From positions 5,387,501 to 5,451,500 of the forward strand of contig NZ_CP030850.1 of NCBI RefSeq assembly GCF_003325355.1: DNA of 64,000 bases, written 5' to 3'. This stretch comes from Runella rosea (GTDB lineage Bacteria > Bacteroidota > Bacteroidia > Cytophagales > Spirosomataceae). The translations under genes and the position numbers were made by a program. Below, one piece after another: positions 38,398 to 40,810 of this stretch. The notes beneath the pieces are model-generated. The model was not told the DNA's origin. It made no database searches and saw only the letters and a list, made by a program, of their open reading frames with translations. Each line of letters opens with the position of its first letter. The first letter of the stretch is position 1.

Positions 38398-39552
38398 CTA
38401 TGCTACAACTGCCTCGCGAGCCAATTCAACCAAGTCTTTATCGTTTACTTCTTTTTTGATGTCTGCTACATCAAGGAATCGCTTGTAAAGCTCGTCCAAT
38501 ACGGGTTTCTCAAAGACAAAGCCCAACAATTCCAAACGGTGCTTGAGGGCGTGGCGGCCGCTGCGAGCGGTCAACACAATCATGGATTTGTCGACACCGA
38601 CGTCGGTGGGGCTCATGATTTCGTAGTTGAGCGTATGTTTGAGGAATCCATCTTGGTGAATACCCGATGAGTGCGCAAACGCATTACGACCTACGATTGC
38701 TTTGTTTGCCTGCACGGGCATCCGCATCATTTTGGATACCATTTGGCTGGTAGGGTACAGCAATTGGGTGTTGATGCCTGTTTCGTAGCCCAATTCTTTG
38801 TGCACTCTAAGCGCCATCACCACTTCTTCGAGTGAAGTGTTGCCGGCACGTTCACCGATACCGTTCATGGTTACTTCTACCTGACGAGCACCGTTCATTA
38901 TACCAGCGAGGGTATTGGCGGTTGCCAAACCAAGGTCATTGTGGCAATGAATAGAGATGGTAGCCTGGTGGGCGTTGGATGCGTGCTCAAAAATATATTT
39001 GATGCGTTCACCGTATTGGTGAGGCAGACAATACCCCGTTGTGTCAGGAATATTGACCACCGTAGCGCCCGCTTTGATGACCGATTCTACCAGATGAGCC
39101 AAAAATGCTAAATCAGCGCGGCCTGCATCTTCGCAGTAGAATTCTACATCTTCTACGTAGCTCTTGGCGTGCTTTACGGCGGCAATTGCCTGCTCTACGA
39201 TTTTTTCGCGGGTACTGTTAAATTTATGTTGAATGTGAATATCCGACGAGCCGAGTCCCGTGTGGATACGTTTGTACTTTGCGTAGGCGAGTGCTTCCCC
39301 GGCGGCATCAATATCACCTTTTACGGCGCGGGATAGGGCACAAATAACGGGTCCGCGAACGGCCTTTGAAATTTCTACGACTGAGCGAAAATCACCGGGG
39401 CTCGAAATCGGAAAACCCGCTTCGATTACGTCAACACCCAGCTTTTCGAGTTCCTTGGCGACAACAATCTTTTCATCGGTAGTCAATTGGCAACCCGGCA
39501 CTTGCTCGCCGTCGCGCAATGTAGTGTCGAAAATTTGAACTCTCTGGCTCAT
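38398..39552 (-). CDS. leuA: 2-isopropylmalate synthase (short form)
   Basis: A 384-residue enzyme of the HMG-CoA-lyase-like family that condenses acetyl-CoA and 2-oxoisovalerate in the first committed step of leucine synthesis. The N-terminal [17 protein letters not shown] motif, [12 protein letters not shown], the metal-binding HCHNDLGLA (His-x-His) and GIGERAGN are all present, and [11 protein letters not shown] marks the second subdomain. The ~130-residue C-terminal allosteric domain that gives leucine feedback inhibition in ~510-aa LeuA is absent. Homocitrate or citramalate synthase activity cannot be fully excluded, but the upstream leader points to branched-chain amino-acid control. 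The gene is alone, without leuBCD. Confidence 0.88.
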
Positions 39553-39624
39553 TGTTAGTAAAGAGGGATTGATTATTGAGTTGTACTTTTGGGTTAAACT
39601 TCGCCAAAATTAATGTAATTTCAT

Positions 39625-39654
39625 AAAAAACCCTTTCTCCTCCGAGAAAGGGTT
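39625..39654 (-). terminator. Attenuator terminator of the leuA leader
   Basis: On the minus strand AACCCTTTCTC (39654-39644) pairs perfectly with GAGAAAGGGTT (39639-39629) around GGAG and is followed by TTTT. It sits about 75 nt before the leuA start and ~25 nt after the leader-peptide stop. The segment GAGAAGGGG (39679-39671), just at the leader stop, can pair with CCCTTTCTC (39652-39644) instead, forming an antiterminator. Confidence 0.8.
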
Positions 39655-39677
39655 CGTATTTCACAAAATCCCCCTTC

Positions 39678-39734
39678 TCACACCGTTTTGGTGAGTGTAA
39701 GTCGGTTGAGTGAAATTGTATATTTTATAATCAT
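39678..39734 (-). CDS. leuA leader peptide (18 aa, attenuation)
   Basis: On the minus strand ATG 39734 to TGA 39678 encodes MIIKYTISLNRLTLTKTV. Seven of 18 residues are branched-chain (three Ile, three Leu, one Val) and four are Thr, the Ile precursor. The codons CTC ACC near its end form the left arm of a pause hairpin with GGTGTGAG, which spans the stop. It begins about 33 nt after the predicted transcription start and lies between the leuA promoter and the attenuator terminator. Starved ribosomes stalling at Ile/Leu codons would favour the antiterminator; full translation would favour the terminator. Confidence 0.72.
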   Translation of the reverse strand: MIIKYTISLNRLTLTKTV

Positions 39735-39773
39735 TTTGTGTTGCGAATTTTCGCTGAACGCGTATTTCTTCTA

Positions 39774-39803
39774 CAAAAGTAGCGGAATAATTTTTTCATG
39801 CAA
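39774..39803 (-). promoter_or_regulatory. leuA promoter
   Basis: On the minus strand TTG (39803-39801), 19-bp spacer, TACTTTTG (39781-39774): an exact match to the Bacteroidota consensus and identical in -7 and spacing to the tRNA-Leu promoter. Start expected near 39767. Confidence 0.82.
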
Positions 39804-39892
39804 AAAGTTTTTGAAAAAAATCTCCACCTGATTTACGGAAAAAAATACCCAGAAGTACTGTTTTACTTTTCGATAGATTTATGATAAATAAT

Positions 39893-39922: not shown

Positions 39923-40810
39923 ATGAAAATTCATTTTTTGGGAATCCTTTATTTTGTGTTATGTATGCAAACTTCTTTTGCCCAAACAGCTGATTTTAAT
40001 TGGCAAGGCCACCGTGGTAGTCGTGGACTGATGCCCGAAAATACCATTCCTGCGTTTTTGAAAGCCCTTGATTTGAAGGTGAATACGCTTGAGTTAGACG
40101 TCGTTATCTCCAAAGACCGCCAAGTAGTGGTTTCGCATGATCCGTACTTTCACCCCGATTTTTCCATTGAGCCCAACGGAAAACCTGTATCGAAAGGGGA
40201 GAAAATAAGTCTGTACGAGCTGAGTTATGATGAGATAAAACGGTACGATGTGGGAAGCAACGGCAATCCGAATTTTCCGCAACAAACGAAGCTGAAAGTG
40301 TACAAACCACTTCTGCGCGAGATGATAGAGGCCGTCGAAACCTACCGAATCAAAAATAATCTACCGTTGTTTTGGTATAATATTGAAATCAAAAGCGAAG
40401 AGAAAGAATACGATAAATCGCAGCCTCAACCAGCTGTTTTTTCGGATTTAGTGTACAATGAAATCAGTAAATTGTTGCCCGCTGATAGAGTTGTTCTGCA
40501 AAGTTTTGATTTCAATGTATTGAAACATTGGAAGAAACAAATTGACGCGGGAGTTTATCAAAAAGTGACTTTGGCCGCTTTGGTGAGCAATTTGAGGGGA
40601 ATTGAAAAGAATTTGGAGGATTTGGGCTTTATACCTGATGTATACAGTCCTTATTTTCAATTATTAAATAAAGAAAAAGTGCAGCAACTTCATACACTTG
40701 GCATGAAGGTAATTCCCTGGACCGTGAATACAACCGAAGAAATGAAGCGGATAAAAACCATGGGAGTGGATGGGATTATTACGGATTATCCAGACCGGAT
40801 TCCTCACTGA
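39923..40810 (+). CDS. Glycerophosphodiester phosphodiesterase (GDPD)
   Basis: A 295-residue secreted phosphodiesterase with a signal peptide ending SFAQ (~residue 21). The GDPD barrel motifs are visible: HRGSRGLMPENT with the catalytic His/Arg and metal Glu (~residues 30-41), LELDVVISKD (Glu and Asp ligands) and VVSHDP with the second catalytic His (~70-75). Later IEIKSEE, VVLQSFD and the closing GVDGIITDYPDRI are typical. It hydrolyses glycerophosphodiesters, the deacylated phospholipids, to glycerol 3-phosphate and an alcohol in the periplasm. The gene diverges from leuA. Confidence 0.92.
   Translation: MKIHFLGILYFVLCMQTSFAQTADFNWQGHRGSRGLMPENTIPAFLKALDLKVNTLELDVVISKDRQVVVSHDPYFHPDFSIEPNGKPVSKGEKISLYELSYDEIKRYDVGSNGNPNFPQQTKLKVYKPLLREMIEAVETYRIKNNLPLFWYNIEIKSEEKEYDKSQPQPAVFSDLVYNEISKLLPADRVVLQSFDFNVLKHWKKQIDAGVYQKVTLAALVSNLRGIEKNLEDLGFIPDVYSPYFQLLNKEKVQQLHTLGMKVIPWTVNTTEEMKRIKTMGVDGIITDYPDRIPH

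Follow-up and report, generated by a model that had tools for sequence, protein, structure and literature searches.

The locus raises the question of how leuA, which encodes 2-isopropylmalate synthase, is controlled in Runella rosea. In the window (the whole 64-kb stretch of DNA analysed here) the gene upstream of leuA is divergent (39923-40810, plus strand) and the gene downstream is convergent, so leuA appears to form its own transcription unit. In the Runella rosea genome leuC and leuB are located just past the ilv genes, approximately 180 kb from leuA, and we saw no leader before leuC by eye. At the Dyadobacter and Spirosoma loci a leader is found between the end of the upstream gene, read as leuB by eye, and leuA. 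The Runella leuA thus seems to have been moved along with its control region.

The LeuA protein gave Pfam matches to HMGL-like and HCS_D2 and nothing else. It passed one NCBIfam 2-isopropylmalate synthase model with 595.5 bits against a cut-off of 532 and stayed below the cut-off of the others. LeuA covers only the first approximately 379 positions of the LeuA models, which are about 500 positions long, and no Pfam match to a C-terminal regulatory domain was found. Transcriptional control might therefore bear more of the leucine feedback. Many of the other proteins matched by LeuA in the phylum search have open frames of more than 500 aa.

Parts and geometry of the leuA leader

The first-pass annotation had described a complete ribosome-mediated attenuator upstream of leuA. 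All its coordinates are correct, and every element that it named is found at its place on the minus strand (Table 1). We confirmed that the leader elements are real and beyond chance. In brief, the proposed TTG-N19 promoter is present and carries a -7 box of the type TAnnTTTG, which has been reported at -12 to -5 for the main sigma factor of Flavobacterium (PMC9723704). It is followed by a predicted leader ORF and by two helices that share segment 3, so that two segments compete for one strand, as had been claimed. The terminated RNA is predicted to be approximately 140-145 nt long, and the terminator lies approximately 72 nt before the leuA start.

Table 1. Features of the leuA control region in window coordinates, and the sister leader before ilvD
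Feature	Position	Strand	Remark
Promoter, TTTTTG - 19 nt - TACTTTTG	39774..39806	-	TTG 39803-39801; start site ~39769 predicted
-7 box TAnnTTTG within TACTTTTG	39781-39774	-	Bacteroidota-type
Operator-like element, ACGCGTTC-AGCGAAAATTCGC	39743..39763	-	core 39755-39743, about +15 to +27
Leader ORF (predicted), 18 codons, 57 nt, MIIKYTISLNRLTLTKTV + TGA	39678..39734	-	sequence reading
Leu codons 9, 12 and 14 of the leader	39710-39708, 39701-39699 (codon -7), 39695-39693	-	
1:2 protector hairpin, over last codons and stop	39677..39701 (39701-39690 with 39684-39677)	-	folding; weakly conserved
Segment 2, antiterminator strand GAGAAGGGG, over leader stop	39671..39679	-	folding, covariation
Segment 3, shared strand CCCTTTCTC, pairs with segment 2 or 4	39644..39652	-	folding, covariation
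Intrinsic terminator (3:4), AACCCTTTCTC-GGAG-GAGAAAGGGTT + U run	39625..39654	-	stem 39654-39629, 11 bp
leuA, 2-isopropylmalate synthase, 384 aa	38398..39552	-	start ATG at 39552
Ile/Val leader MFTNIIVVVVVILCTQTV + terminator before ilvD	L114:553-689 = G000:C1:5231252-5231388		by eye

For the 89-nt leader we obtained a folding energy of -35.8 kcal/mol (z -5.11) and for the terminator stretch alone a z of -4.90; in both cases none of 200 shuffles was as good. An RNA cut after segment 3 folds as the antiterminator (-18.4, z -1.80), with 7 of 200 shuffles as good, and this helix by itself is only modestly unusual. For a single sequence the terminator is thus compelling and the antiterminator suggestive only, and it is the relatives that decide. 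The 64-kb window has two other perfect 11-bp hairpins with a T-rich tail, both of which are on the plus strand. Allowing up to two mismatches, we found the terminator pattern nowhere else in the 7.16-Mb genome, and the control gave 0.

We suggest the following mechanism. RNA polymerase would start near 39769 and a ribosome would enter the leader ORF at 39734. With ample charged leucyl-tRNA, this ribosome would reach the stop at 39680-39678 and mask GAGAAGGGG; the terminator (39654-39629) would then form and leuA would not be transcribed. When leucine is short, the ribosome would wait at Leu codon -7 (39701-39699), covering the RNA to approximately 39687. This would leave GAGAAGGGG free to pair with CCCTTTCTC, no terminator would form and leuA would be read. 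A ribosome is reported to cover approximately 12 nt beyond the A-site codon (PMC4833913). With this cover the ribosome front lies before segment 2 at codon -7 and past segment 2 at the stop, which is the geometry required by classic attenuation. While the parts and their geometry are established, we infer promoter use, ORF translation, stalling, termination and the physiological signal from the sequence. If the leader works in this way, leuA is very probably switched on only at leucine shortage.

Conservation among relatives

The leuA loci compared are the best 80 of 585; one is truncated, and the other 79 were used, partly by script and partly by eye. Leader ORF and terminator are present in 64 of the 79 loci from these best 80 of 585. 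Three of the 64 (L069, L070 and L096), in which the script had overlooked the leader, have weaker terminators. In two loci of the same set (L046 and L078) the leader start is degenerate, and in 13 leader and terminator are absent before leuA, namely in seven Larkinella, two Fibrisoma and two Fibrella loci, L094 and L109. No close relative was seen to have lost the small ORF or the competing stems, all 11 Runella genomes read having kept leader and terminator.

Three loci among the best 80 of 585 that carry leaders come from outside the family (L107, L108 and L110). They belong to more distant Bacteroidota, titled Paludibacter sp., Paludibacteraceae bacterium and Bacteroidetes bacterium, and have MTNNFLHILLLGIIILLQNKAK-like leaders. 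A wider search for leuA gave a match in 92 of 148 genomes, including its own, and 40 regions at order, class and phylum level were hand-picked from the other 91. The script flagged a leader before leuA in four of these 40 regions (L177, L178, L183 and L198), none with an acceptable leucine cluster. Outside the family leuA may lie within longer operons.

The antiterminator duplex, between the leader-stop region and the 5' arm of the terminator, is better than dinucleotide shuffles (p<=0.05) in 50 of 65 relatives from the best 80 of 585; the scripted set of 65 includes five miscalled loci (L046, L049, L078, L097 and L109), all kept in the denominators. For the 1:2 hairpin the corresponding count in the same set is 7 of 65. 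The earlier claim of this hairpin is thus poorly borne out. The letters, CTCACC (39695-39690) with GGTGTGAG (39684-39677) on the minus strand, are in place and fold. The pairing is however bulged, is not generally conserved and is not the one of lowest energy, which is CUUACACU:GGUGUGAG (39701-39694 with 39684-39677, including two G-U pairs).

Covariation of the two helices

We aligned 42 leaders by sequence only, blind to structure; these are the window and 41 chosen of the 80 loci (best 80 of 585). In the 42 leaders 87.3% of the antiterminator cells are paired in register, against 46-72% when slid by 1-3 columns, and for the terminator the figures are 95.8% against 38-75%. Cells with a double change number 30 in the antiterminator (shuffle mean 17.1) and 16 in the terminator (shuffle mean 5.4), and in both helices none of 500 shuffles was as high. 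One antiterminator pair is A-U in 22, G-U in 13 and G-C in seven of the 42 leaders. The number of antiterminator pairs with a double change is not above shuffles (369 of 500 as high), and neither are further pair types in the antiterminator (378 of 500) or in the terminator (123 of 500). The compensatory changes that the first-pass annotation had proposed to look for in both alternative stems are thus found as two-sided changes beyond shuffles. With this, both the claimed antiterminator and the claimed competing terminator are kept and covarying in relatives, and their conservation and covariation are established.

A covariance model of the leader was also searched against 22 genomes, several of which are within the model's own alignment. 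At E<=1e-3 it found 19 places, of which 16 are leuA (14) or ilvD (2). A leuA match at this threshold is missing in eight of the 22 genomes, one of which (G026) nonetheless has a leader.

Leader codons and the sister leader before ilvD

Leader peptides were gathered by hand, 68 for leuA and 28 for ilvD, from the first ATG before the terminator, so some selection is possible; the start was taken as TTG for Emticicia and for one ilvD leader. Leucine makes up 26.5% of the 1055 residues in the 68 distinct leuA leaders. In 58 of the 68 the seventh codon before the stop (codon -7) is a Leu codon, a conserved position that we regard as established. Two further leuA leaders outside the 68, read by eye, have Leu in one and Ile in the other at codon -7. 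Leucine clusters such as MTLQPNNMLGLLLTHVM, MKPIAQNLILLLLITS and MIFHYQTLRSLLLARTP are common at the control region in relatives. The Runella rosea leader has only three Leu codons, none adjacent. Its composition had been given as 7 of 18 Ile/Leu/Val plus four Thr; the count is correct, but the relatives narrow the relevant residue to Leu. Likewise, of the Ile/Leu/Val codons proposed to be retained, it is Leu that is kept at a fixed place, and Ile/Leu/Val as such is too broad.

In the Spirosoma leuA leaders L062, L065-L068, L073-L076, L079 and L081 the peptide itself is kept as RLQxLxVF-stop. This conservation would seem to exceed the apparent need of codon control alone.

A genome search with the conserved element upstream of the leuA leader gave one other place, the promoter of the ilvD operon, and no control match; the gene names of this operon were assigned by eye. 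By eye, the leader before ilvD ends in a similar way (CACCCAAACGGTGTGAG) and comes with an antiterminator-like pairing and a terminator of its own. Ile and Val together account for 38.8% of the 459 residues in the 28 ilvD leaders, against 12.1% in the leuA leaders, and none of 5000 permutations was as extreme. It should be noted that Leu makes up 19.2% of the ilvD leader residues, and the leucine contrast with the leuA leaders is therefore a matter of degree. A relative of the ilvD protein was found in 59 of 61 family genomes. At class level ilvD gave a match in 15 of 70 genomes, its own included, and two (L254 and L257) of the 15 class-level upstream regions, which come from the other 14 genomes, have an Ile/Val leader by eye.

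With Leu-rich leaders before leuA and Ile/Val-rich leaders before ilvD, leuA would read Leu codons and ilvD Ile/Val codons, as in classic ribosome-mediated attenuation. The reading of the locus as leader-peptide attenuation is thus supported by the conserved parts, the covariation of both helices, the fixed Leu codon and the Ile/Val sister leader, and it is this comparison of relatives that makes the regulatory reading strong.

Alternative explanations

The terminator might be governed otherwise, by a protein or by general transcription-translation coupling, with an ORF that merely keeps a ribosome on the RNA. The ilvB and leuA leaders of Streptomyces coelicolor look similar to the Runella one, and codon mutations there are reported to have no or inconsistent effects (PMC1262725); the dispersed Leu codons of the Runella rosea leader also fit such a reading. 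However, the leader amino acids track the downstream pathway, Leu for leuA and Ile/Val for ilvD, and Leu stands at a fixed codon in most leuA leaders. General coupling would need neither, and we regard this explanation as improbable.

A plain terminator preceded by a chance small ORF is very unlikely. Simple terminators are likewise strong hairpins with U runs, and the three remaining places found by the covariance model (3 of 19 at E<=1e-3) look like plain terminators. Against this, the upstream gene of leuA is divergent, a promoter is located just upstream of the leader, and antiterminator strand and ORF are conserved along with the terminator; in Runella no free drift was seen. We give an equally slight chance to a riboswitch that senses a metabolite or a tRNA, such as a T-box or a PyrG-type element. 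In its favour, PyrG_leader was matched in Rfam, but below threshold (27.5 bits, cut-off 65, E 0.087). No Rfam family reached its cut-off in the scanned leuA leader regions, and what is conserved is the ORF, its codons and two alternative helices, and no large aptamer. We are therefore highly confident that leuA has a leucine-specific, ribosome-mediated transcription attenuator.

A palindrome shared by leuA and ilvD

The palindrome AGCGAAWWTTCGC is located within both predicted transcripts, leuA and ilvD. At up to one mismatch it was found upstream of leuA in 60 of 79 regions (best 80 of 585) and upstream of ilvD in 40 of 49. In a control of one mononucleotide shuffle per region it was present in one of the 79 and in none of the 49. 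Where a -7-like box was matched, by a lenient pattern, the distance from it to the start of the palindrome is exactly 18 nt for 52 of 55 leuA sites (best 80 of 585) and 17-21 nt for all 30 such ilvD sites. With a longer form of the motif, 17 of 37 genomes yielded 26 sites, and the reversed pattern yielded one; three of the 26 were not located by the script, and 21 of the 23 sites read precede leuA or ilvD.

Palindrome and attenuator do not always occur together. In 18 of 49 ilvD regions the palindrome stands right before the gene without a leader. At up to one mismatch it is missing from 19 of the 79 leuA regions (best 80 of 585), and leaders without it are found at five Emticicia loci, L107, L108 and L110. 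The two modules are thus separable in both directions.

We also considered whether the palindrome acts as an RNA hairpin. It does not fold unusually well (z -0.58, equalled or bettered by 61 of 200 shuffles), a recurrent right-arm variant, TTTCAC, is uncompensated, and the palindrome appears reversed, by eye, before the Fibrella leuA (L097 and L098). These observations favour a DNA element, a reading that falls short of proof as a search at up to one mismatch is unable to show double changes. The two Fibrella loci have no leader, and their reversed palindrome forms part of a long inverted repeat directly following the -7 box (by eye).

A scan of 22 genomes gave 36 palindrome sites, with 53 strand hits against six for the reversed control. 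Beyond leuA and ilvD, sites were found before malate synthase (in L238), before an XRE helix-turn-helix/M78 gene and at some places without evident meaning. A AGCGAAAATTCGCA site is also followed by a similar short ORF in three genera (L230, L235 and L247; MKKVLWLFPVAALAVSTAA... in L230). The candidate regulator proteins match HTH_3 and Peptidase_M78, domains that RamB presumably shares. The palindrome at up to one mismatch is located upstream of 7 of 25 XRE/M78 genes (19/20 genomes), and none of 500 shuffles gave as much. None of the four Runella XRE/M78 copies has it at this threshold (2-4 mismatches), and the link to a regulator is weakest in Runella itself. The copy in the Runella rosea genome is located at G000:C1:1555031.

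Genes for glyoxylate-cycle regulators of the ScfR/RamB type are reported next to malate synthase, together with a conserved motif upstream (PMC10370305). The likeness to ScfR concerns the palindrome only: the candidate XRE/M78 regulators, compared by Pfam domains alone, and the motif before malate synthase in relatives. The ScfR sites known so far are described as a pair of near-identical boxes (PMC10370305), whereas the motif in the Runella family is a palindrome and is also found at ilvD and leuA. The sites before an XRE/M78 (RamB-like) gene and before malate synthase in relatives make an acyl-CoA-linked operator plausible. It is plausible that the palindrome is the operator of a RamB-like XRE/M78 regulator, with AGCGAAWWTTCGCT as a candidate site.

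Based on these observations, we tentatively speculate that two stacked, separable modules could run branched-chain synthesis in the family. An operator just inside the leuA and ilvD transcripts would be bound by a RamB-like XRE/M78 regulator, which would also control the glyoxylate shunt and itself and so tie the acetyl-CoA use of LeuA to acetyl/acyl-CoA status. Below it, attenuators would read Leu or Ile/Val codons. Some lineages would have the operator only and others the attenuator only. Though possible, this whole picture is one that we would not yet favour over its negation.

Comparison with known systems

The leu and ilv attenuators of enterobacteria have a leader ORF with codons for the end product and separate Leu and Ile/Val leaders. 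Their stop lets the terminating ribosome mask segment 2, and antiterminator and U-tailed terminator are mutually exclusive. The Runella leader is alike in its ORF codons, stop placement, exclusive helices and separate Leu and Ile/Val leaders. Unlike the enterobacterial systems, it has a promoter of the Bacteroidota type, dispersed Leu codons, a poorly conserved protector hairpin and no Rfam match at cut-off, and leuA is apparently controlled alone, away from leuC and leuB near the ilv genes.

Rfam (release 15) gave no match at the leader when the whole window was scanned at gathering scores. No family reached its cut-off in 39540-39860, scanned up to E 5, or in L112, L107 and L110, scanned up to E 1. 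Two candidate RNAs that come to mind because they were described from Bacteroidetes or labelled leu, Bacteroid-trp (RF01692) and Termite-leu (RF01730) (Weinberg 2010; PMC2864571), were reported in none of the scans of the window, 39540-39860 or these three loci. The actinobacterial LEU element likewise has a leader peptide with Leu codons upstream of leuA. It is described as a pseudoknot in which the run of Leu codons pairs with the leuA Shine-Dalgarno box to form the base stem (PMC1262725), where Runella instead has a transcription terminator before leuA.

In Flavobacterium psychrophilum, of the same phylum, structured 5' transcribed regions with clues to leader peptides have been reported, and leader-peptide attenuation was suggested upstream of amino-acid biosynthesis operons (PMC9723704). 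The main text of that paper does not contain 'ilv' or 'leuA', and we met with neither a comparative series nor a codon analysis in the parts consulted. The first-pass annotation knew of no standard description in this lineage. This holds for the leuA/ilvD pair, which we did not find in the Rfam scans or recognise in any report from Bacteroidota in the literature covered by our search, much of it as partial text. It does not hold for the phylum, which is not untouched (PMC9723704).

Significance

The mechanism is textbook, and leader-peptide attenuation in Bacteroidota has already been suggested for Flavobacterium (PMC9723704). What the present locus adds is an example of classic leucine attenuation in Bacteroidota that is comparatively well supported and is accompanied by a matching Ile/Val leader elsewhere in the genome. 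A published survey of attenuation across bacteria (Lopatovskaya 2010, Mol Biol 44:128) could include the leuA/ilvD pair. Bacteroidota are generally known to make little use of Shine-Dalgarno sequences. With Leu and Ile/Val leaders in one genome, the textbook mechanism becomes testable in a phylum whose promoters differ. The putative stacked operator is the newer and least expected part of the system, and the shared palindrome provides a concrete candidate operator together with a candidate type of regulator.
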